Below, piece after piece: positions 1,415-19,964 of a stretch of 29,430 nt of DNA. Below the pieces are notes generated by a model that had not been told where the DNA came from, made no database searches, and saw only the letters and a program-made list of their open reading frames with translations. Position 1 is the first letter of the stretch. Every line of letters begins with the position of its first letter. This stretch comes from a virus: positions 1-29,430 of the IMG/VR virus record IMGVR_UViG_3300045482_000114, one strand, 5' to 3'. The translations under genes and the position numbers were made by a program.

Positions 1415-1972
1415 GTGGCCCCTGTGATCCCGACCACCGAACCGACCACAGCCACGGCGGGTGCCACGTGGCAGTGGCAAGTCTCGGACCCGGTATTCCC
1501 CGCAGCGGATGGCTGGGTGCTCTCCTACGCCATCCGGGGGCCGGACGCGCCGGCGTGGGAGGCGGGCTGGGTGGCCACGGCGGACGGGGTGCACACGATC
1601 ACGATTTCTGCGGCGGCGACCGCGGCCTGGACGGCGGGCCGCTACGAGCTGACCCGGATCTGGACCCTCGGCAGCGTGGTCCACCACCGGCCGGTGGCCC
1701 CGCTCGCGGTGGCGCCGAACCCGGCGACGGCCGCGCCCGGCGAGCGGGTGACGCACGCGGCGCGGACGCTGGCGGTGATTGAGGCCGCGCTCGAGGGGCG
1801 GGTGACCGACGACATCCAGAACTACATGATCGGGTCGCGCCAAGTCATCAAGATCCCCGTGATGGAGCTGCTGCGCCTGCGTCAGCACTACCGGCTGGAG
1901 GTCTACCGGGAGCGGCACCCCGGCAAGACGGCCCCGCCCCTGCTGGTGCGGTTCTCGGGAGTGGGCGGGTGA
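1415..1972 (+). CDS. gpW-like head-tail joining protein with N-terminal beta domain
   Basis: A 185-residue protein. Residues 1 to about 100 look like an Ig-like beta domain (TWQWQVSDP, then alternating hydrophobics around HTITISAAATAAWTAG). Residues 113-185 form a helical part with a segment resembling gpW-type joining proteins (IEAALEGRVTDDIQNYMIGS, then ELLRLRQHYRLEV). In lambda, gpW sits between terminase and portal, exactly this position, and closes the head after packaging. The GTG start has a GGAG about 9 bases upstream. Its stop overlaps the portal start as GTGA. The gpW link is by position and short motifs only. Confidence 0.65.
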   Translation: MAPVIPTTEPTTATAGATWQWQVSDPVFPAADGWVLSYAIRGPDAPAWEAGWVATADGVHTITISAAATAAWTAGRYELTRIWTLGSVVHHRPVAPLAVAPNPATAAPGERVTHAARTLAVIEAALEGRVTDDIQNYMIGSRQVIKIPVMELLRLRQHYRLEVYRERHPGKTAPPLLVRFSGVGG

Positions 1973-3537
1973 AGCCCCCCTCGCTCTGGCGGCGCGCACT
2001 GCGGGCGGTGGGCCTCGAGCCCGCGCGCGCCGTGCGGTCAGGGTTCGCGGGCGCCCAGCACCACCGGCTGCTGGCGGACTGGCTGACCAGCTCAGTCGGG
2101 CCGAACGCCGAGCTGCGCTACAGCGCGCGGCAACTGATGGTGCGCGCCCGCGACCTCGAAAAGAACGACGCACTGGTGCGGCGCTACCTGGCGCTGGTGG
2201 CCGAAAACGTCGTGGGCCACCGGGGGCAGGTGCTCCAGTCGCGGAACGTGCTGCCCGACGGCCGGCCCAACAGCCAGGCCAACGACCAGATCGAGGCGGC
2301 GTGGGCGGAGTGGGGCCGTCCCGGCGAGTGCACCATGGGCGGCCGCCAGTCGTTCGTCGAGTTCCAGCAGCAGGTGGTGCGGGCCGTGGCGCGGGATGGC
2401 GAGGCGCTGGTGCGGCTGGTGCGCGGGGTGGGGCGATACGGGTTGCGGGTGGTGATGCTGGACCCGGACCTGTTCGACGACGCGGGAGGCGTGCGCGCCA
2501 CGGGGGCGGGGACCGTGATCCACAACGGGGTCGAGGTGGACGGGTGGGGCCGGCCGGTGGCGTACCACCTGTGGACGCACCACCTCAACGAGACCGGGAT
2601 CGACCGGCGGGTCGAGCGCATCGTGGCGAGCGACGTGCTCCATCTCACCCGCCCGCGCCGTGCGGGGGCGCTGCGGGCCGAGTCGTGGTTGGCCCCGGTG
2701 CTGACGACGATCCGGCACCGCAACGGCTACATCGAGGCCGCGGTGGTCAATGCCCGGACGGGTGCCGCCAAGATGGGGTTCGTCCTGCAGTCGGAGGACG
2801 CTGTCGGGAGCGGCCCCGACCCTGACGCAGCTCCGCAGGAGCTGGAGGCGTCGCCGGGCGTGCTCGAGCGGCTGGCACCCGGCGAGACGTTCGCCGCATT
2901 CGATCCCGACTACCCCACCGCGCAGTTCGGACCGTTCCTCGCGGCGATCGATCACGAGATCGCTGCCGGGCTCGGCGTCTCCTACACCTCCCTGACCGGC
3001 AACCTCTCGCAGGTCAACTACTCCAGCATCCGCGCCGGCCTGCTGACCGAGCGCGACACCTGGCGCTCGCTGCAAGTGTGGTTCGCCGACCAGCTCCTCA
3101 CACCGCTGTTCGAGGAGTGGCTGCGTGCGGCCTGGGCCAGTGGGGCGCTGTCGCTGCGGATGCTGCCGGACCAGTACCGGGCACACCGCTGGCAGGCTCG
3201 CGGGTGGGATTGGGTGGATCCCCTGAAAGATGTGCAGGCGCAGGCGCTGGGTGTGGCGTTCGGGTTTACCACGCGCGGGCGGGTCGTCTCCGCGCACGGG
3301 GAGGACTACGAGGCGCTGCTGGCCGAGGCCGAGCGCGAGCGTGACCTGGAAACCTGGTACGGCGCGACCCCGCGCCTGCCGAGTGGCGTGATCAGCGCCG
3401 AGGAGGATGAAGATGGGGCCACCGATGAAGTTGCCGATGCAGCGGAGGACGCTGGAAATCGACCGCGAGGCGCTGGCCACCCGAGCCGAGGGCGAGGAGC
3501 GGATTCCAGTCTCCTTCTCGTCAGACGCGCGGGTTAG
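1969..3537 (+). CDS. Portal protein, lambda family
   Basis: A 522-residue portal protein, which forms the dodecameric DNA channel at the head vertex and docks terminase and connectors. The length is normal for lambda-type portals (pfam05136). Recognisable segments are RARDLEKNDALVRRYL (residues 59-74) and QVNYSSIRAG (348-357), the latter a signature of this family. The GTG start overlaps the previous stop (GTGA). The last 40 or so residues are acidic, then Arg/Gly/Ser-rich, and overlap the start of the protease-capsid gene by about 125 bases in another frame, so this tail may be dispensable. Confidence 0.93.
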   Translation: MKPPSLWRRALRAVGLEPARAVRSGFAGAQHHRLLADWLTSSVGPNAELRYSARQLMVRARDLEKNDALVRRYLALVAENVVGHRGQVLQSRNVLPDGRPNSQANDQIEAAWAEWGRPGECTMGGRQSFVEFQQQVVRAVARDGEALVRLVRGVGRYGLRVVMLDPDLFDDAGGVRATGAGTVIHNGVEVDGWGRPVAYHLWTHHLNETGIDRRVERIVASDVLHLTRPRRAGALRAESWLAPVLTTIRHRNGYIEAAVVNARTGAAKMGFVLQSEDAVGSGPDPDAAPQELEASPGVLERLAPGETFAAFDPDYPTAQFGPFLAAIDHEIAAGLGVSYTSLTGNLSQVNYSSIRAGLLTERDTWRSLQVWFADQLLTPLFEEWLRAAWASGALSLRMLPDQYRAHRWQARGWDWVDPLKDVQAQALGVAFGFTTRGRVVSAHGEDYEALLAEAERERDLETWYGATPRLPSGVISAEEDEDGATDEVADAAEDAGNRPRGAGHPSRGRGADSSLLLVRRAG

Positions 3538-5263
3538 GCAGCGGTTTGGGCTGGAAGTCCTCGATCACTCGCCCGGCGCGGTCAACATGGAGTACGCGAA
3601 GAACGGCTTGCCGTTCTTGGTCGCGCACAGCCGTGGTCAGCTCGCAGGCCGTGTGGAGAATATCGCGTTTGCGGGTGGGCGGGGGCGCGGATGGCTCCGC
3701 ACAGGCAGGTCACCGTTCGCCCGAGAGATCCGGCAGGACATCGAGGACGGGATTCGGCCAGATCTCTCGGTCGGGTATCGCGTGGATGAGCTCGTACTCG
3801 AGGGGCTGGACGGCGACGACAAGGTGTATCGCGCAACCCGATGGACACCGATGGAAGTCAGTTCTGAACCGATCCCGGCCGATGTGTCGGTGGGAGCTTA
3901 CCGGAACGCGGAAGCTCTGGACGAGTTCCCGGTAAAGATCTCTGACCAGAGCGACCCTGACACCCCTGAAGTAAGGAGCACAACAATGACCGAGCCGATC
4001 ACGGCTGCGGCCCCGGTAGGGGTCGTACAGGAGCCCCGCGAGACCGAGGCGAAGCTGGTCGCCGCCGCGGCCCGCACGTTCAAGATGGAGAGCAAGCTGC
4101 CGGAGTGGATCGGCCGCGGGCTGACGCTGGAGCAGGTGCGCGGCGAGATCGAGGCCGAGCAGGTGCGCGCGGCCTCGGCCACCCCTCCGCCGGGGCACGT
4201 CGATCTGACACCGAAGGAGGAGCGCGCCTATAACCCCCTCGCGGCCATCTTCGCGATCGCGGATGGGAAGTGGGAGCGCGGCGGCGGGCTCGAGAAGGAG
4301 GTCAGTGATGCGGTCGCGCAGCGGATGGGCCGCCCGCCGCGGTCGTTCTACCTGCCGATGAACGTCCGGAGCGTGACGGGCAACGTGGTGGGCACCCCCG
4401 GGCTCGGCGGCCACGCGGTCGAGACCCAGCTGGTGGGGTTCATCGACCTGCTGCGCGCTCGCATGAAGGTGCGCGCCATGGGTGCCACCGTGATGACCGG
4501 GCTGAAGGGGAACCTCGCGATCCCGCGGCAGATCACCGCCAACGCCGTGTCGTGGGTGGGCGAGAATCCCGCCACCGGCGTCGGGCTCACCGCGCTCACG
4601 CTGGACCAGGTCACGATGACGCCCAAGGTCGCGATGGGCTCCACCGCCTACTCGCGCCTGGCCGCACACCAGACCACACCGGACGTGAGCGCACTGGTCC
4701 TGAACGATCTGGCCCTGACCGCGGCCCTCGCCGTGGATTCCGCGGCGATCAACGGGACCGGGTCGAGCAACCAGCCCACCGGCGTGCGGCTGACGAGCGG
4801 CATCAACACCCGGCCGGTCGGCGCCAACGGGGGCGCGCTCACCTGGGCGCTCCTGGTCGGTGCGGAGACGGAGATCGCGGTCGACAACGCCGACGTCGCC
4901 ACGATGGGCTGGCTCACGACCCCCGGCGTGCGGGGCTCGGCGAAGACGATCCTCAAGAGCGCCACGGCGGGCTCGCATTTCCTGTGGTCCGACGACAACA
5001 AGATGAATGGCTACCGGGCCGAGGTCAGCACCCAGGTGCCGAGCAACCTCACCAAGGGCACCAGTAACGGGATCTGCCACGCCGCGATCTTCGGCGACTG
5101 GTCGCAGTTGATGATCGGTGAGTGGGGGGGGGCGCTCGACGTCCTGGTGGATCCGTACAAGTACGCCGACAAGGGCATGGTAGCGGTCTACAGCTACCTC
5201 ACCGTGGACGTGGCGGTGCGCCAGCCGTCGGGGTTCTGCCTCATTCCGGACATCCTCGTCTGA
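3413..5263 (+). CDS. Fused HK97-type prohead protease and major capsid protein
   Basis: A 616-residue fusion of a prohead maturation protease (about residues 1-185) and an HK97-fold major capsid protein (about 300-616), with a linker that could serve as scaffold. The serine protease residues are likely H72 (FLVAHSRGQ) and S119 (PDLSVGYR), with the conserved WTPMEVSSEPIPAD segment following. The capsid part contains LPMNVRSVTGN and IPRQITANAVSWVGEN and ends in VRQPSGFCLIPDILV. The ATG at 3413 is preferred because AGGAGG ends 6 bases upstream; ATG 3407 directly abuts it. An internal start at 3986 (Met192) could give capsid alone. The protease part has visibly lower GC than its neighbours. Confidence 0.92.
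   Translation: MGPPMKLPMQRRTLEIDREALATRAEGEERIPVSFSSDARVRQRFGLEVLDHSPGAVNMEYAKNGLPFLVAHSRGQLAGRVENIAFAGGRGRGWLRTGRSPFAREIRQDIEDGIRPDLSVGYRVDELVLEGLDGDDKVYRATRWTPMEVSSEPIPADVSVGAYRNAEALDEFPVKISDQSDPDTPEVRSTTMTEPITAAAPVGVVQEPRETEAKLVAAAARTFKMESKLPEWIGRGLTLEQVRGEIEAEQVRAASATPPPGHVDLTPKEERAYNPLAAIFAIADGKWERGGGLEKEVSDAVAQRMGRPPRSFYLPMNVRSVTGNVVGTPGLGGHAVETQLVGFIDLLRARMKVRAMGATVMTGLKGNLAIPRQITANAVSWVGENPATGVGLTALTLDQVTMTPKVAMGSTAYSRLAAHQTTPDVSALVLNDLALTAALAVDSAAINGTGSSNQPTGVRLTSGINTRPVGANGGALTWALLVGAETEIAVDNADVATMGWLTTPGVRGSAKTILKSATAGSHFLWSDDNKMNGYRAEVSTQVPSNLTKGTSNGICHAAIFGDWSQLMIGEWGGALDVLVDPYKYADKGMVAVYSYLTVDVAVRQPSGFCLIPDILV
3973..3988 (+). promoter_or_regulatory. Internal ribosome binding site and in-frame start for capsid alone
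   Basis: A full AAGGAG (3973-3978) lies 7 bases before an ATG (3986-3988) in frame with the protease-capsid gene. It is among the best Shine-Dalgarno sites in the window and falls exactly at the domain boundary. Initiation here would give a 425-residue protein made of the linker plus capsid domain, without the protease. Lambda uses a comparable in-frame nested start (C and Nu3) to set protease and scaffold levels. Use of this start is inferred. Confidence 0.7.
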
Positions 5264-7781: not shown

Positions 7782-8065
7782 ACACCGACCCCACCCCCCC
7801 GCCCGTCGCGGGGGTGTCGTTTCCGGCGGTGGCGCGGCTGGTGGAGCGGGAGTACGGGGCGGCGTGGTGGTACAACCCCGCGCGGTGGGCGACGCTGGAT
7901 GGGTACGCGCCCTACGGCGCGGTCTGGGACGCGTGGGAGACGATGCGGCGGGCGCGCGCCCTCGACCGCATCAACCTGGTGCGGGCGGTGGCGATCAGCC
8001 GGGCGGGGGAGCGCGCGCAACGATTGCTGGACAGTGATCTGAAGGAGGCGTTCCCCGATGGCTAG
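7712..8065 (+). CDS. Tail assembly chaperone, frameshift extension (T part of gpGT)
   Basis: The -1 frame portion read after slippage at 7706-7712. It adds 117 residues, giving a fusion of about 208 residues when read from 7440. The extension has a Pro/Gly linker and then a well-formed domain containing PAVARLVEREYGAAWWYNPA, DGYAPYGAVWDAWETMRR and ISRAGERAQRLLDS. No good independent start exists at the head of this frame, which supports its being made only by frameshifting. In lambda the T domain recruits the tail tube protein to the G-coated tape measure. It overlaps the tape measure start by 8 bases. Confidence 0.75.
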   Translation, partial: RPPGRASPGPAAPLDEWDRIEALNTDPTPPPVAGVSFPAVARLVEREYGAAWWYNPARWATLDGYAPYGAVWDAWETMRRARALDRINLVRAVAISRAGERAQRLLDSDLKEAFPDG

Positions 8066-10952
8066 CCCCAAGGTCAGCGTCGTCCTCGAGTTGCTCGACA
8101 AGATGACGCAGCCCCTGAACGGCGCGAAGGGCTCCGTCGAGTCCTTCGGCGCCAAGGCCGTCGGCGTCTTCAAGGCGGTCGCCGCCTCGGCCGTGGCGCT
8201 GGCTCTGGGCAAGTTCTTCAAGGAGGCTGTGAGCCGTGCGATGGAGGCGGAGCTCGCCTTCGCGCAACTCGAGGCCGCGGTCGCGAGCACCGGTGGCGCG
8301 GCGGGGTTCACGGCGAAGGAGCTCAAGGGCCAGGCCGACGCGCTCGCGCGGCTCACCAATTTCTCCAGCGAAGCCGTGCAGGGCGGCCTCGCCCGTCTGC
8401 TGGGGTACACCGACATCCAGGGCGCCATGTTCGAGCGGGCCACCCGCGCGACACTGGACATGGCGCAGGCGCTGGGCATCGACGTCTCGAGCGCGGCCGA
8501 AAAAGTCGGCAACGCCCTCAACTATCCGACCCAATCCCTCAACTCGCTCACCCGGCAGGGCTTCCGCTTCACCGATGAGCAGCGGCGCATGATCGCCGAG
8601 ATGGAGCGCGCGGGGAATATCGCCGGCGCCCAGGCGATCATCCTCGAGGAGCTCGAGCTCGCCTATGGCGGCAGCGCGGAGGCGGCAGGCCGCACCTTCG
8701 CGGGCGCGCTGGACAAGCTGGGCAAGGCGTGGGACGGGGTCCTGGAAGCGGTCGGCCGCGCGATCATCGGGAACGAGCAGATCACGGGCTCCATGGGCTG
8801 GCTGGTGGAGACGCTGGCCGAGGTGGAGCAGTGGGTGGTGGCCAACGAGGGGGCCATCAGCGAGTTCGCGGGCGCGGTCGTGACCGCCTTCCGCGCGGTC
8901 GGCGAGGTCGTCAAGGCCGTGGTCTCCGTGCTGATGGTCTCACTCGGCGGGTGGCTCAACCTCGTCCAGTGGATCGGGGTGGCGGCGACCGAGATGGGGT
9001 TCGCGTGGGACGGGATCGCGCCGGCCGTCAAGAAAATGGCGGGCAACGTCCTGATCACGCTCTCCTCGCTGGTGGGAGAGTCGCGGATCGTCCTGACCAT
9101 CTTCGGGGACGCGGCGACCGACCTGGCCAACCGGATGGGCGACTCGGGTGTGCGCATGGTGCGCGAGGCGTCGAAGGCACAGCGCGACATCAAGGCGGGC
9201 CGGGAGCTCTACTACCGCGAACTGGGAGAGCAGGCCGTCCGTGGCGAGCAGACCCAGACCCGCGCCACCGCGGAGGGGGGGGCCCGGCGCAAGGAGCTGA
9301 CCAAGGAGGAGCTCGACGCGATCGAGAGGGCGCGCAAGGCGGCGGCTAAGCGGCTGGACGACCTGCGCGACGAGATCCTCCTCAAGGAGATCCGCTTCCA
9401 GCACAACTGGAGTGAGGCGACGGCCAAGGCGTACATCCAGCGTGAGAGGGACCTCGGCCGCACGATGCAGGTGCAGGTGGCCACGATCGAGGAGGCGTAC
9501 AGGCGCTTGGATGCGGTGAACACCCTGCTGGCCGCGGGGTTCACGCAGCGGGTGGTCCCGGCCATCAAGAGCACCACGGAGCGGATTCAGGAGCTCGGCC
9601 ACCACGCCGAGCCGGTCACGGTCACGATCCGGGAGACGGGCGCCGCCGCTCAGGAGTCCGGCGAAAACTTCGAGCGGACGGCCCGCACGGCGGTGGACGC
9701 CGCACACGGTATGGGGTTGCTGGACGACGCCGGCAAGGGTGTGATGACCACCATGCTCAACCTCAGCTCGGCGATCAAGGATGCGATCGCGGGCGGGTGG
9801 TCAACGGGCGGGATCATCGGGGTGGTGGCGGGCGTGGGTTCGCTGATGAGGAGCCTCTTCGGCGGGAAGAGCCCGGCGCAGATCGCGGCGGAGCGGGCGC
9901 TGCGGAAGAACACCGAGGTGATCGAGGACAACACCCGGCAGGTGGGCGACCTGACGCGGCTGCAAACGGCCGGCGGGAAGTTGGCCGGAGCCCAGTCGGC
10001 GCTGCAGGGGTTCCTCGGCTCCGATCTGGCGAAGTTCCTCGGCCCGATGGGGAGGGTGTTGGGCGGGATCGAGCGGGGCAAACAGGCGCAAGCCGCGCTC
10101 GTGAAGGCGCTGGCGGCGGCTGGCCTCAGCGTCAGCGACCTCGACCGGATCGCCAAGGACCTGGACATCACCATCCGGGACGATCAGGGCCGGCTGGATT
10201 CTCGGTTTCTCCAGAACCTACTGGCCCAGCTCGGGGCCATCGAGCCCACCCAATTCGCCCAGACCTTCGCGGGCGGCCGGGCGCGGCTGCGCGAGGAGAC
10301 GCGCCTCTTCGACCTGAGCCCCGCGGAGCAGGCGCGCCGGCTCGTGGCCCTCGCCGGGGGGCCCCTCGGATCCAGCCTCATCGGCCAGCGGCTCGGCGGG
10401 CTCGATTTCACCACGGCCGAGGGGCGTGCGGCGGGTGTCGCCGCCATCCAGCGGCTCTTCACCGACATGCCCGGGCTCTCGGCGGCCGATCTCGGCGGGC
10501 TCACCGGCAGTGACCTGCTCGCCTTTTTGGCGGACCTCAAGGACCTGCTCACCACGCCCCCTCCCGCCACGGGGGTGGGGGGGGACGAGGACGGGGGGGG
10601 GGCGGGAACGGGAGGGGGGACGGGAACGGGAGGGGGGACAATCCCCGAGACGGACGCCCCCGCCCCCCGCCTCTCCCTGGCCGACCTCGTGGCGACGGCC
10701 ACCCGCAGTGAGATGCATCTGGCCACGATCGCCGGCCACACCAGCGTGCTGCCCACCCTGACCGGCCCGCTCGGCGGCGTGGAGCGGGCCCCGCGCCTGG
10801 AGATCCACGGGGGGGTGCACATCGCGGTCACCACACCGGCGGGAGCGGGAGGCGCGGAGACCGGCGCGGCCATCGCCCGGGCGATCGACGAGGAGCTTGG
10901 CCGCCTCTACCGCGAGCGCCGGCTGGCGCTCGGCGACGTGAGGCGCACATGA
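8058..10952 (+). CDS. Tail tape measure protein
   Basis: A 964-residue protein, mostly helical, that sets tail length and is ejected into the cell on infection. It begins with ASPKVSVVLELLDKMTQPL, then a hydrophobic stretch (about residues 33-55). Residues 80-220 contain FTAKELKGQADALARLTNFS and ALDMAQALGID-type segments seen in siphoviral tape measures. Further hydrophobic stretches lie near 290-310 and 590-605. Long charged helices fill the middle. A glycine-rich linker at about 840-868 contains tandem GTGGGT and lies before a C-terminal region. The ATG has AAGGAGG 10 bases upstream, and the gene follows the frameshifted chaperones. Confidence 0.92.
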   Translation: MASPKVSVVLELLDKMTQPLNGAKGSVESFGAKAVGVFKAVAASAVALALGKFFKEAVSRAMEAELAFAQLEAAVASTGGAAGFTAKELKGQADALARLTNFSSEAVQGGLARLLGYTDIQGAMFERATRATLDMAQALGIDVSSAAEKVGNALNYPTQSLNSLTRQGFRFTDEQRRMIAEMERAGNIAGAQAIILEELELAYGGSAEAAGRTFAGALDKLGKAWDGVLEAVGRAIIGNEQITGSMGWLVETLAEVEQWVVANEGAISEFAGAVVTAFRAVGEVVKAVVSVLMVSLGGWLNLVQWIGVAATEMGFAWDGIAPAVKKMAGNVLITLSSLVGESRIVLTIFGDAATDLANRMGDSGVRMVREASKAQRDIKAGRELYYRELGEQAVRGEQTQTRATAEGGARRKELTKEELDAIERARKAAAKRLDDLRDEILLKEIRFQHNWSEATAKAYIQRERDLGRTMQVQVATIEEAYRRLDAVNTLLAAGFTQRVVPAIKSTTERIQELGHHAEPVTVTIRETGAAAQESGENFERTARTAVDAAHGMGLLDDAGKGVMTTMLNLSSAIKDAIAGGWSTGGIIGVVAGVGSLMRSLFGGKSPAQIAAERALRKNTEVIEDNTRQVGDLTRLQTAGGKLAGAQSALQGFLGSDLAKFLGPMGRVLGGIERGKQAQAALVKALAAAGLSVSDLDRIAKDLDITIRDDQGRLDSRFLQNLLAQLGAIEPTQFAQTFAGGRARLREETRLFDLSPAEQARRLVALAGGPLGSSLIGQRLGGLDFTTAEGRAAGVAAIQRLFTDMPGLSAADLGGLTGSDLLAFLADLKDLLTTPPPATGVGGDEDGGGAGTGGGTGTGGGTIPETDAPAPRLSLADLVATATRSEMHLATIAGHTSVLPTLTGPLGGVERAPRLEIHGGVHIAVTTPAGAGGAETGAAIARAIDEELGRLYRERRLALGDVRRT
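10603..10638 (+). repeat. Tandem 18-bp repeat within the tape measure gene
   Basis: Two identical 18-bp units lie back to back (10603-10620 and 10621-10638), each beginning CGGGAACGGG and each encoding one GTGGGT hexapeptide. They sit next to G8 and G10 runs (10577-10584, 10593-10602). The unit is a multiple of three, so copy changes would alter linker length without a frameshift. This may be a slippage-prone minisatellite. Confidence 0.85.
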
Positions 10953-14333: not shown

Positions 14334-14612
14334 GTGACGCTTGACGCCGGCGCAGTCCTCATCTGGCTCCTGGAGCACCTGACCGTGCTCCTGATCCCGC
14401 TGCTCATCTGGATGACGCGGAGCCTCTGGCAGGTGAGCCAGACGATCTACGGCACCAAGGGAGACAACGGCCTCCAGGGCAGCGTGCGCGAGGCGAAGCG
14501 GCGCCTGCACGAGCACGGCACCGTCCTGCAGCGCCACGAGGGCCAGCTCGACCGCCACCGGGAGCGGCTCGACGGGCACGACCGCGAGCTCTCCGACCTG
14601 AGGTCACGATGA
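14334..14612 (+). CDS. Membrane protein with coiled-coil tail, lysis-associated
   Basis: A 92-residue protein with one strong N-terminal membrane segment (residues 9-30, LIWLLEHLTVLLIPLLIW) followed by a charged coiled coil rich in His, Arg and Glu (residues 50-92). It sits directly before the endolysin, overlapping its start (ATGA), and has GGAGG 6 bases before its GTG. The plan recalls small XhlA-like lysis proteins or holin-antiholin accessories, and also inner spanins. Its lysis role is inferred from position and topology. Confidence 0.6.
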   Translation: MTLDAGAVLIWLLEHLTVLLIPLLIWMTRSLWQVSQTIYGTKGDNGLQGSVREAKRRLHEHGTVLQRHEGQLDRHRERLDGHDRELSDLRSR

Positions 14613-15145
14613 GCCGCCTCCTGCTGCTCGACGCCCGCGAGACGGTGCTCTCGGTGGCCCGCCATCACCGCTGGGTGCGGGAGACGCAGGGCAGCAACCG
14701 CGGCGAGGTGGTGGACCGGATCGTCCGCGAGTCGGGGCTCGATCCCGCCGGCCGCTTCGCCTGGTGCGCCTGTTTCGTGGCCTACATCGGCCGGATGGTG
14801 CTGGCGTATCCGCCGCGGCGGTGGCCGCTGAAGCCCTGGGCGGGGTGTGTCAGCCTCGCCCAGGAGGCGGACCAGTTGGGCCTGCTGCGCACGGAGCCCG
14901 CGTGGGGGGGGGTCTTCCTCCAGTGGCGCGCACTCCAGGAGGGCGGGCGGACGGTGGAGCGGTTCGCGCACACGGGATTTCTGGGCCTCCCCGTCACGGG
15001 CCGGCCCGGCTGGTGGGAGACGATCGAGGGCAACACCAGCCCCGACGGCAGCCGGGAGGGGACCGGCGTGTTCATCCGGGAGCGGCGGTTCCACCACCGC
15101 GACCGGTTCATCTGGTGGTGGGATCGTCCCGCCACCCCACCCTGA
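14609..15145 (+). CDS. Endolysin with CHAP-type peptidase domain
   Basis: A 178-residue protein that likely cuts peptidoglycan peptide or amide bonds. The CHAP catalytic cysteine is C53 in AWCACFVAYI, the histidine is H121 in RFAHTGFLG, and E140/N142 in TIEGNTSPDG likely complete the site. The N-terminal ETQGSNRGEVVDRI is usual just before the cysteine in phage enzymes of this type. No signal peptide is seen, so export depends on a holin; the holin-like gene follows 10 bases downstream. There is no obvious cell-wall binding domain, as expected for Gram-negative-type hosts. Confidence 0.87.
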   Translation: MSRLLLLDARETVLSVARHHRWVRETQGSNRGEVVDRIVRESGLDPAGRFAWCACFVAYIGRMVLAYPPRRWPLKPWAGCVSLAQEADQLGLLRTEPAWGGVFLQWRALQEGGRTVERFAHTGFLGLPVTGRPGWWETIEGNTSPDGSREGTGVFIRERRFHHRDRFIWWWDRPATPP

Positions 15146-16852: not shown

Positions 16853-17635
16853 ATGGGACTGCTCAACGGCGCTGTAGGCAATTCACGCGGTAGCGTGTCA
16901 CGCACGACGTTGCGCTCTGTGCAACGCAGTGGACACCGGGCGGCTGCGGTTGCAACAGCAACCGGATTGCCGGACGCGGTGGACCCGTGGGCGGCGGGCC
17001 CGCACACGTGGCGCGTGTTCCGCTCGCTGCGGCAGCCTCTGGTGGGGTCCGTGTCGGATGTGCTCCGCACGCCGAGCGGCACTTATCCGGGGGGCGGTGC
17101 CTTCATCGGCGGCGTGTTGCTCCCTGATGGGCGGGTCTTCTGTGTGCCGAGCAACTCGACCACCGCGCGCATCTACGATCCGGTCAACGATGTGCTAACC
17201 ACCCCGAGCGGCACCTATCCGGGGAGCAATGCCTTTTTCGGCGGTGTCCTGTTGCCGGACGGGCGGGTGTTCTGTGTGCCGACCTCCGGTGCCGCGCGCA
17301 TCTATGATCCCATCGCGGACGTGCTCACGACGACAGTCAGCGGGTTTCCGGGCGGTGATGGGCTGGTGTTCGGCGTTCTGCTGCCCGACGGGCGGGTGTT
17401 CTGCGTGCCGAGCAAGTCGACCACCGCGCGCATCTACGATCCGGTCACGGACACACTCACCACGCCGAGCGGCACCTATCCGGGGAGCAATGCCTATCGC
17501 GGCGGCGTTCTGCTGCCCGACGGGCGGGTGTTCTGCGTGCCGAGCACCTCGACGACGGCGCGGGTCTACGGCGACGCGCTGCCGCGCCCGCTGCCTCCGG
17601 CGCGGGTCCTCAGCCCCTACGACAACAAACTCTGA
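16853..17635 (+). CDS. Four-repeat propeller-like protein, putative fibre or adhesin
   Basis: A 260-residue protein built from four near-identical repeats of about 43-44 residues (69-112, 113-155, 156-199, 200-240). Each has the order 'TTPSGTYPG', 'GGVLLPDGRVFCVPS' and 'TTARIYDPV'. This strand layout resembles Kelch or related beta-propeller blades; four blades would be a small propeller unless it assembles as an oligomer. The N-terminal 60 residues are basic and unlike the repeats. Location in the late block suggests a tail fibre or surface-binding protein. The ATG follows the previous stop with no gap. Confidence 0.65.
   Translation: MGLLNGAVGNSRGSVSRTTLRSVQRSGHRAAAVATATGLPDAVDPWAAGPHTWRVFRSLRQPLVGSVSDVLRTPSGTYPGGGAFIGGVLLPDGRVFCVPSNSTTARIYDPVNDVLTTPSGTYPGSNAFFGGVLLPDGRVFCVPTSGAARIYDPIADVLTTTVSGFPGGDGLVFGVLLPDGRVFCVPSKSTTARIYDPVTDTLTTPSGTYPGSNAYRGGVLLPDGRVFCVPSTSTTARVYGDALPRPLPPARVLSPYDNKL
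17057..17572 (+). repeat. Four tandem ~130-bp coding repeats
   Basis: The four blades of the propeller-like gene are also repeated at DNA level. Stretches such as CCGAGCGGCACCTATCCGG and GACGGGCGGGTGTTCTG recur with few changes, so the array probably arose by recent duplication and could gain or lose units by recombination. Unit 3 differs most in its first third (SGFPGGDGLVF). Confidence 0.8.
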
Positions 17636-18774
17636 TGCGCGGCACCGTCTCGGGGCTCGATACCACCCTCCACCTCACCCTGCCGGGCGACGGGCTGGCG
17701 GATTATCCGGAAGGTGTGGCGCTCGGCGTCCTCGCGGGGGGGGGGGCGGTGCTGGCCGCCACCGTGACGTGTACGGTGAGTGCCTCCGGGGGGCTGACCA
17801 CCGGCATCACGCTGGCCGGGGGGGGCAGCCTCGGCGTGAGTAGCGCGGCGGCCCTCAGTACCGCGACTGAGATGGCGGCGGCCGCCGTCCTCGCCGTCAC
17901 CGCAACGGCGGGCCTGACAACCGACATCCGTCTCGCGGGTCAGGCAGCCCTTGGGATGGGCGTGGCGGCGGCGCTCAGCACCGGCATACACCTCGCTGGC
18001 CAGGTGAGCCTAGGTGTGGCCACCGCGGCGGCGCTGACGACCGATGTGCGGCTAGCCGCGGCCGCCGCTCTGACCCTCACCACGGCGGGCGCCCTCGACG
18101 CCCCGGCGGCCCTGGCGGGTACGGCCCACGCGACCATCTCGGCGGCGGGCGTGCTCACGACCGGGGTCACGATGGCGGGCAGCGCGTCCCTGGCCGTGAG
18201 CGCGGCGGCGGCACTCGGCACGGCGATTGAGGTGGCGAGCGCGGCCCCGCTCACGCTCTCCGCCACCGGGGCACTGACTACAGGGATCCATCTAGCGAGC
18301 GCCGCGACCCTGTCGGTGAGCGCGGCCGCGGCGCTGGCGACCGACCTTCGGATGGCGGGAGCGGCGACCCTCGCGGCGTCCTCGGCCGCCGCCATGACCA
18401 CCGCCATTCGTCTGGCGGGGCAGGCATCGCTGGCGGTGCACGGTGCCGGCGCCCTCGGGACCGCGATCACGTTGGCAGGTCAGGCCACCGCGACGGCGGC
18501 CACGGCCGGGGCGGTCGCCACCGAGATCCGCCTCGCGGGTCAGGCGGCCCTGGCCGTGGCCGCCGTCGCGGTCCTGGGAACCGACATCCGCCTGGCCGGT
18601 AGCGCCACGGGTACGATCATGGCCAGCGGCACCCTGGAGATCGTCACGACCATCCTCCGGTGGCGACTGACCGACGTCTCGGCCCCCGCGTTCTCCTTTG
18701 CCGATGCCAGTGTCCCCGCGCATGTCGTCACCGACACTTCGGTCCCTGCGTTCTCGCTTCGGAGGGTGCCATGA
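17635..18774 (+). CDS. Fibre-like protein of fifteen exact 20-residue repeats
   Basis: A 379-residue protein. Residues 41-340 are fifteen consecutive 20-residue units without a single insertion or deletion: L, M or V at every residue 20n from 60 to 320, nearly always followed by A-G or A-S, then an A-L-x-V-type strand, a small-residue turn (AAAL) and a T-T-x-I strand. It is mostly Ala, Thr, Gly, Leu and Ser. This predicts a regular beta-solenoid or beta-fibre shaft. Residues 345-375 hold a different short repeat (SAPAFSF, SVPAHVV, SVPAFSL). The N-terminal 40 residues probably attach it. The ATG overlaps the previous stop (TGATG). A tail-fibre shaft role is inferred. Confidence 0.7.
   Translation: MRGTVSGLDTTLHLTLPGDGLADYPEGVALGVLAGGGAVLAATVTCTVSASGGLTTGITLAGGGSLGVSSAAALSTATEMAAAAVLAVTATAGLTTDIRLAGQAALGMGVAAALSTGIHLAGQVSLGVATAAALTTDVRLAAAAALTLTTAGALDAPAALAGTAHATISAAGVLTTGVTMAGSASLAVSAAAALGTAIEVASAAPLTLSATGALTTGIHLASAATLSVSAAAALATDLRMAGAATLAASSAAAMTTAIRLAGQASLAVHGAGALGTAITLAGQATATAATAGAVATEIRLAGQAALAVAAVAVLGTDIRLAGSATGTIMASGTLEIVTTILRWRLTDVSAPAFSFADASVPAHVVTDTSVPAFSLRRVP
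17755..18654 (+). repeat. 60-bp periodic coding repeat array, 15 units
   Basis: The 20-residue units produce an uninterrupted 60-bp period across 900 bases. Some units share long DNA identity (for example CGCCTCGCGGGTCAGGCGGC near 18529, and a similar stretch near 17932), while others have diverged at the DNA level but keep the protein pattern. This argues for old repeats held by selection plus some recent exchange. Confidence 0.8.
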
Positions 18775-19133
18775 GCACACCGCGCCGGCTCAACTGCTAC
18801 GCCGATTTCCATTTCACGACCGATATCCGGATCTCCTCCGCCACGGACGGCACCCTCGTCACGCCCGCTGCGGGGGCGGTGACCGACGTCCGGCTCCGTC
18901 TCAGCGCCACCGAGCACGGCGCTGCGCTGCACGCGGCTGTCGGCAACCTGCTCGCGACGGAGTACGCGGGCAAGCCCGGCCGGTTTACGGTGCGCGTGGA
19001 CCAGGCGCACCTCCTCGCCCACGTCTGGCCGCTGGGCAAGGGCACGCCCGTCTGGGCAGTCTGGAGCAAGGCGGGCGACTTCGACCGCATCAGCACCCCG
19101 TACCTCGTCTGGGACGGGGAACGGATACCCTAA
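18771..19133 (+). CDS. Hypothetical virion-associated protein
   Basis: A 120-residue alpha-beta protein (YADFHFTTDIRISS, then GAVTDVRLRLSATEHGAALH, FTVRVDQAHLLAHVWPLGKG). No family recognised. The ATG overlaps the repeat-protein stop (ATGA), tying it to the fibre block; it may be a fibre assembly or attachment protein. Confidence 0.55.
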   Translation: MSTPRRLNCYADFHFTTDIRISSATDGTLVTPAAGAVTDVRLRLSATEHGAALHAAVGNLLATEYAGKPGRFTVRVDQAHLLAHVWPLGKGTPVWAVWSKAGDFDRISTPYLVWDGERIP

Positions 19134-19157
19134 CAACGCAGAGTGGGAGGCACACCG

Positions 19158-19550
19158 ATGACACGCACACTGGAGCAGTACACCCCTCAGGCGCTGGCGG
19201 ACGAGGCCGCGCGCCTGCATCAGACCTACGGCGCCGAGGGCGGACTCCGGGAATACCGCGCCTTGGTGGCGGGCCTCCGCCAGGAGTGCTTCAATCGCCG
19301 CGCGCGCGACATGGACCCCGACGGGCTCCTCCGCGACTGGGCTGCCGAGATGACGGCGCGGCATGGTCCGCACGTCCACGTACACGGCATCACGTACACG
19401 TGGCCCGCCGCGCTGGGTGTCGCTCGGTACGGGGAGGATCCGGAGCACTGGCCGGACGCGTTCGCGGCCGCGGATGTCCACCGCGCCAAGCGGTGGCTGT
19501 ATCAGGGCGTGGTGCCCGAGGGTGTCACCTACATCACCGTGGAGGGCTAG
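19158..19550 (+). CDS. Hypothetical protein
   Basis: A 130-residue acidic, mainly helical protein starting MTRTLEQYTPQALADEAARL, with a short His-rich strand (HGPHVHVHGITYTW) in the middle. No family is recognised. ATG 19158 is preferred because GGGAGG lies 9 bases upstream; the in-frame GTG at 19143 lacks a site. It lies between two adhesion-block genes. Confidence 0.55.
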   Translation: MTRTLEQYTPQALADEAARLHQTYGAEGGLREYRALVAGLRQECFNRRARDMDPDGLLRDWAAEMTARHGPHVHVHGITYTWPAALGVARYGEDPEHWPDAFAAADVHRAKRWLYQGVVPEGVTYITVEG

Positions 19551-19553
19551 ACC

Positions 19554-19964
19554 ATGAGCGCGATGACCGACTATCTCGAGGGGGAATTGCGGAAGCACCT
19601 GTTCCGCACCGGCTCCTACACCAAGCCGGCGCAGCTGCACGTCCGACTGTATACCGCAGCGCCCGGCGAGGCTGGCGGGGGCACGGAAGTCAGCGGCGGC
19701 TCCTATGCCCCCGTGCAGCGCGACCCGCTGGACGCCAACTGGACCGCGGCCAGCGCCACCGACGGCCTGACCGATAACGCCGCCGCGCTGACGTTCCCCG
19801 CGCCCACGGCTAACTGGGGCGTGGTGACCCACTTTGCCATCGCGGACGCCGCGACGGCGGGCAACATGCTGATCTACGGGGCGCTGGCCCAGGCGAAAAC
19901 CGTGAACAACGGAGACGCGGCGCCCAGTTTCCCCGCTGGCTCGCTGGACATCACGTTCGCCTGA
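19554..19964 (+). CDS. Phage tail-fibre-associated protein
   Basis: A 136-residue protein with the plan of a common phage family near tail fibres: N-terminal helix (TDYLEGELRKHLF), then QLHVRLYTAAPGEAGGGTEV, GGSYAPVQRD, ALTFPAPTANWGVVTHFAI and PSFPAGSLDITF. These 'LYTAAP...GGTEVSGGSYA...FPAGSL' segments recur in many phages and are usually annotated as tail fibre or minor structural proteins. The ATG at 19554 follows the previous stop closely; ATG 19563 is an alternative start. Confidence 0.7.
   Translation: MSAMTDYLEGELRKHLFRTGSYTKPAQLHVRLYTAAPGEAGGGTEVSGGSYAPVQRDPLDANWTAASATDGLTDNAAALTFPAPTANWGVVTHFAIADAATAGNMLIYGALAQAKTVNNGDAAPSFPAGSLDITFA

Follow-up and report, generated by a model that had tools for sequence, protein, structure and literature searches.

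What does a phage protein look like, and what would it do for the phage, when its sequence repeats every 20 residues fifteen times over with no insertion or deletion? The question arises from the window, by which we mean the whole stretch of DNA analysed here, an entire virus record of IMG/VR, 29,430 bases long. By gene content, including a tape-measure gene and minor tail proteins, the window phage reads as a siphovirus; window bases 1-25,000 have no DNA-level match in the annotated phage collection. Our analysis favours, with a probability of about 0.6, the reading that the protein is a virion fibre or adhesin belonging to a module of the phage GP4 kind, in which a two-strand beta-solenoid shaft would space a host-binding part from the virion. 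The features that the argument draws on are as follows.

109-1032: terminase
1969-3537: portal
3407-5263: capsid/protease
8058-10952: tape measure
14609-15145: endolysin
16853-17635, + strand: 260 aa propeller-like protein with about four ~44-aa repeats; TGATG overlap with the repeat gene
17635-18774, + strand: repeat protein gene, 379 aa; its ATG overlaps the preceding stop (TGATG)
17635-17754, + strand: N-terminal 40 residues of the repeat protein, non-repeat, low model confidence
17755-18654, + strand: 15 gap-free 20-residue units, residues 41-340; modelled by AF2 with two beta segments each
18664-18771, + strand: C-terminal region, three 10-residue units (DVSAPAFSFA, DASVPAHVVT, DTSVPAFSLR)
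18771-19133, + strand: 120 aa gene directly 3' of the repeat gene, with a 4-base overlap, in the position of the gp77 adaptor in other members
19143-19550, + strand: 135 aa gene, weak match to the TIGR02242 tail domain
19554-19964, + strand: homologue of GP4 fibre I (gp80), 136 aa; PF23140 at E 2.8e-42, PDB 8jou_a at E 1.3e-13
right end of the window: HNH endonuclease and a weak integrase match

The identity of the repeat protein to itself is 0.41 at lag 20, 0.46 at lag 40 and 0.44 at lag 60, compared with 0.163 +/- 0.020 at lag 20 in shuffled versions and a maximum of 0.264 over lags 5 to 59 (3000 shuffles), which bears out the exact gap-free period that a sequence-only reading of this DNA had assigned to residues 41-340. 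Two exclusions made in that reading also hold, namely that the repeats are not 15-residue triple beta-spirals (identity is not raised at lag 15) and that they lack a pentapeptide pattern (lag 5 is not raised either, and Pfam gives no match). The C-terminal repeat that it had put at 10-11 residues is indeed present and distinct, but its length is exactly 10 residues, in three copies (lag-10 identity 0.35, shuffle P 0.0024). At the DNA level, identity at lag 60 is 0.55 and is lowest at codon position 3 (0.44, versus 0.62 and 0.60 at the others); consequently, the repeats are old, with a periodicity kept at the level of the protein. Tandem Repeats Finder misses the 20-residue repeats in the window DNA.

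No profile in Pfam, PHROGs or NCBIfam matches the repeat protein, and no PDB chain matches the repeats by sequence. Neither a tblastn search of phages with the window protein nor a protein-based scan of viral contigs returned matches, and tblastn with two family members as queries also returned none; a likely reason is low-complexity filtering. A DNA pattern scan for two copies of LxTx[IV]xLAG set 20 residues apart picked out 40 stretches in viruses and 22 in the genomes of prokaryotes. When translated, the viral matches and six of the genome matches carry the same repeat; the six are in Massilia sp. Leaf139, Methylovulum miyakonense HT12, Nitrospira, Nitrospiria, a betaproteobacterium and a Chloroflexi MAG. 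The remaining genome matches were rejected as unrelated low-complexity frames, mostly AFLAGAFF-like and probably antisense. In genomes of bacteria, long open frames of the AFLAGAFFTAFFLAG type (L123, L124, L128, L134, L140 and L143) mimic the pattern and are probably the antisense of Lys/Ala-rich repeats.

A hidden Markov model (HMM) of the repeat matched 47 proteins, duplicates and the window included, which correspond to about 41 non-redundant members. A version built without the window rows still recognises the window protein (E 1e-35), and it matches no sequence in a set of 1000 shuffles of that protein. The members belong to very different phages and prophages, with locus G+C from 0.43 to 0.72, and the host groups seen are beta- and gammaproteobacteria, Nitrospirota and a Chloroflexi MAG; among 274 gammaproteobacterial genomes, only the already-known Methylovulum locus matched at E 1e-10. 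The expectation that homologues would keep the period holds for the single step between neighbouring units, which is 20 residues in 145 of 149 cases, and fails for strict regularity: units one to three residues longer are present in most of the 41 members tested, and only three members, the window protein among them, are strictly regular.

The units of the window protein follow the consensus A-G-x-A-x-L-x-V-x-A-x-A/G-x-L-T-T-x-I-x-L. Ala is invariant at position 1, position 2 is small and mostly Gly, and positions 4, 6, 8, 10, 14, 16, 18 and 20 carry only hydrophobic residues, small residues or Thr, without any charge. Over 42 proteins of the family, position 2 is Gly in 86% and position 12 is Gly in 67% or Ala in 31%, with Leu at 14 (96%), Thr at 16 (94%), Ile at 18 (83%) and Leu at 20 (88%), where the percentages at positions 14, 16, 18, 20, 1 and 2 are inflated by the member-finding pattern, which fixes these positions and leaves 4-12 free. 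With inward and outward positions assigned by alternation, charged residues account for 0.4% of the former versus 9.4% of the latter in the 42 proteins, and charged residues, Asn, Gln and His together for about 1% of inward positions. Judged from these residues, the unit pattern is that predicted for two beta segments with two Gly/Ala corners ten residues apart. A constant coil length and an alternation of inward hydrophobic or small residues with outward polar ones, the combination characteristic of beta-solenoids, are both found.

The alternation and the Gly corners would suit any beta-fibre, and known tailed-phage fibres are mostly trimers. It is possible, if somewhat unlikely, that the fibre module is the same but its repeats make up an intertwined homotrimeric beta-fibre with a 20-residue period, like a triple beta-spiral or a triple beta-helix, and the solenoid model of the window protein does come from a monomer run. 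The fixed corner spacing (the 145 of 149 steps of 20 residues) speaks against a trimer of this type, as if each coil returned to register, and the inward Ala, Leu, Ile and Thr would fit a narrow two-sheet solenoid.

AF2, applied to the window protein with 36 relatives, predicts two strands per unit with a repeat pLDDT of about 89-90, a mean of 81 and a pTM of 0.73. Prediction of the monomer, which had been proposed as a check, thus gave confident coils for the window repeats but only about 41-58 for those of L006, a less regular, divergent member. The confidence of the AF2 solenoid is to be discounted because AF2 over-predicts solenoids, having made them of 36 out of 50 random 20-residue repeats (PMC11795689). 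This blind spot and the low values in L006 would agree with the repeats being a flexible, mostly disordered or weakly structured Ala/Ser/Thr-rich linker from an adhesin head to the virion, with the solenoid an AF2 artefact; the authors of the work on siphophage LSH1 weigh a linker or a hallucination for a comparable region (PMC13243795). We consider a linker improbable, since neither the strict conservation of Leu14, Thr16, Ile18, Leu20 and Gly2 across very divergent phages nor a face nearly without charge would be expected of one.

Compared with known structures by VIA, the window model ranks the curli protein CsgA first (PDB 8c50, Z 26.7, rmsd 8.6), followed by an ice-binding beta-helix (Z 21.7, rmsd 3.2) and tailspikes (Z about 17). 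What the model shares with the CsgA beta-solenoid is a repeat of about 20 residues with two strands in each. CsgA has inward Gln/Asn and Ser ladders and repeats of 22-23 residues; the repeat family, in contrast, has Ala, Leu, Ile and Thr on its inward side, no Gln/Asn ladders and a period of 20, and the identity to CsgA is 8%. With P22-type tailspikes and ice-binding beta-helices (1tsp, 3p4g; Z about 17-22) the model shares parallel beta-helix geometry but no sequence relation, and the P22 tailspike is a three-sheet trimer, unlike the modelled rod. Foldseek finds no match for the window model in the PDB at E 0.001, and the nearest shapes in BFVD are unnamed phage proteins (A0A6J5RH99, prob 1.00, TMq 0.78, E 0.79).

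What precedes and follows the repeats in other members points to the role of the protein. N-terminal to its repeats L004 has a Laminin_G_3 match that passes the curated cut-off, L012 has a weak BNR-like match in the same place, and LamG-like sequence, as read by eye, lies ahead of the repeats in several more members. C-terminal to the repeats there are short repeats such as FEGSGSRV or RTFTVPA, comparable to those of the window in L130, L031, L008 and others, and beyond these L002, L006, L031 and L039 have a further domain of about 110 residues. In the L006 model the pLDDT of this domain is 75-94 over most of its length, and Foldseek, run with the model against the PDB, ranks 8jou_B first (prob 1.00, E 0.012), an entry entitled "Fiber I and fiber-tail-adaptor of phage GP4". 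VIA also places 8jou_B first for the domain (Z 8.6 over 85 of 89 residues), followed by the Milano neck (8.0), the 7-7-1 collar (7.4) and Ig-like domains (6.2). With 8jou_B, neck and collar proteins ranked first for the predicted fold, L006 probably has a neck- or collar-type anchor fused C-terminal to its repeats; comparing profiles of the fused domain and of gp77 sequences, however, revealed no link at the sequence level.

PDB 8JOU, for which the citation is Zheng et al. (2023, J Mol Biol 435:168258), comprises fibre I and the fibre-tail adaptor of GP4 (gp80 and gp77). Within the locus sequences, the gp80 gene is on the same strand as the repeat gene, usually just upstream, in 27 of 47 loci; among the 21 loci (window excluded) with at least 2.5 kb of upstream DNA, 20 have it on that strand. 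A gp80 homologue is present in 39 of 46 whole member records versus 1 of 19 control records, which are phage records picked by the window's capsid protein (Fisher P 1.6e-9; some member records are duplicates, and the count without them is 35 of 42). Of the seven records without gp80, six are fragments (4-20 kb) and one is a MAG. Besides the window, 27 family records were tested for gp77 (PF23148); seven have it, and in all of these the order is gp80, repeat gene, gp77. The module thus resembles that of GP4 and gp55-gp56-gp57 of Lessievirus BcepIL02 in that gp80 adjoins, with the repeat gene between gp80 and gp77 in seven family records, and resembles GP4 also in the adaptor-like C-terminal domain of one modelled member. 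It differs from the GP4 module in that the window phage is by gene content a siphovirus, its own gp77 (PF23148) is not detected in the window, and the repeats have no PDB match.

Three observations on the window count against placing its protein in such a fibre module: it has no detectable gp77, its gp80 is downstream of the repeat gene rather than upstream, and 18 of the 19 nearest relatives by capsid protein have no detectable gp80. The gene at 18771-19133, which has no detectable homology to gp77, may stand in for it as a candidate. A homologue of 19143-19550 lies beside gp80 in L012 and shares the open frame L130:1981-2955 with a gp80-like match, on which grounds 19143-19550 is probably part of the gp80 unit. 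That L130 has both neighbours in one frame suggests that they act together. The gene at 16853-17635, apparently translationally coupled to the repeat gene, may be a candidate head or adhesin. Its 132-base DNA period, with 72% match, suggests that its repeats expanded recently, and it partly matches the radical copper oxidase GlxA, at E 3e-8 and far short of the cut-off.

A module past the lysis genes has also been described in siphophage LSH1, where gp34-gp36, an "extra structural module" 3' of the lysis genes, comprise an adhesin, an 8JOU-like fibril and an Ig-like protein (PMC13243795). By that description the likeness extends to the doubtful beta-helical C-terminal part of the adhesin gp34, which differs from the window protein in bearing a lyase-like beta-helix head. 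The claim of a solenoid or fibre shaft is partly supported, by the regular repeat, the gp80/gp77 context and the two-strand AF2 coils; AF2, given its bias towards solenoids for such repeats and its low confidence in L006, does not decide between solenoid and trimer.

Whether the protein is part of the particle bears on a further alternative, in which it is a non-virion assembly factor or chaperone for the fibre module. The gene order gp80, repeat gene, gp77 has its parallel in gp55-gp56-gp57 of BcepIL02 and in the gp80-like, middle and gp77-like genes of JC1, and the middle genes of both have a weak period of 20-22 residues. JC1 virions contained gp53 (gp80-like) and gp55 (gp77-like), and gp54, in the slot of the repeat gene, is not listed (PMC9144972); similarly, phiM5_17 (gp80-like) is flagged in the particle proteome and phiM5_18, in the repeat-gene slot, is not. 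The sequence-only reading would have been weakened by non-virion homologues, and the slot counterparts give a divided answer: gp56 of BcepIL02 is annotated as virion-associated, and JC1 gp54 and phiM5_18 were undetected in particles, all three being positional counterparts known by gene slot. An assembly factor nevertheless seems very improbable given that annotation, the assignment of phrog_19041 as virion structural, and the lectin domain and fused GP4-adaptor-like domain that members bear.

The repeat HMM had no matches among the gp80-neighbour genes of the isolate phages scanned, those of JC1 and phiM5 included. Several of these genes have a period of 20-21 residues and short C-terminal repeats containing Trp or Arg. 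In isolate and spring-water phages, proteins encoded beside or near a gp80 homologue (L149:8389-9219, L150:14802-15578, L151:8398-9078, L154:5318-6286, L144:6397-7107 and L152:8375-8971) have a period of about 20-21 residues and C-terminal 10-residue repeats with Trp. Because the HMM does not match them, we read these proteins as remote or convergent.

Returning to the solenoid shaft of a GP4-kind module, we propose that each 20-residue unit would form two short beta-strands parted by Gly/Ala corners, and that the stacked units, about 15 coils in all, would make a stiff, flattened rod that holds the host-binding part away from the virion. Relatives can carry a lectin (LamG) or weakly BNR-like part before the rod, and after it short repeats followed by a gp77-related Ig-like adaptor, either fused or encoded by the next gene. 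Since heads precede the rod and the adaptor comes after it in relatives, the rod probably has its N-terminus outward and its C-terminus inward, where it would be attached near the neck or tail. From the distal end the module would consist of a lectin or propeller head, the rod, short C-terminal repeats and an Ig-like anchor, with a gp80-like fibril partner; in the window the head could be the separate propeller-like gene at 16853-17635. We infer that the protein would be incorporated in the virion of this phage and take part in receptor binding.

To our knowledge, no tailed-phage fibre built as a single-chain two-strand beta-solenoid of 20-residue units is known. As far as sequence can tell, the same putative repeat rod is found beside a gp80 partner in dozens of different phages, with no name in the family databases searched. 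A tentative extension, which may well not hold, is that these proteins represent an unnamed, widespread class of neck or tail fibres with such a shaft, joined modularly to lectin or propeller heads at one end and to an Ig anchor of the gp77/collar type at the other. If the solenoid is true, a thin single-chain rod joins the known fibre architectures. Adhesin genes of environmental phages are hard to spot, as repeat-rich, Ala-rich shafts sink below similarity searches. Used together, the 20-residue signature and the gp80/gp77 bracket offer a workable way to find host-binding fibres of phages and prophages from several groups of bacteria, and they single out concrete proteins for structural study.

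Elsewhere in the window, a short G-rich tandem repeat with an 18-base period, GGGGGGACGGGAACGGGA, is present at 10569-10639, near the 3' end of the tape measure gene.
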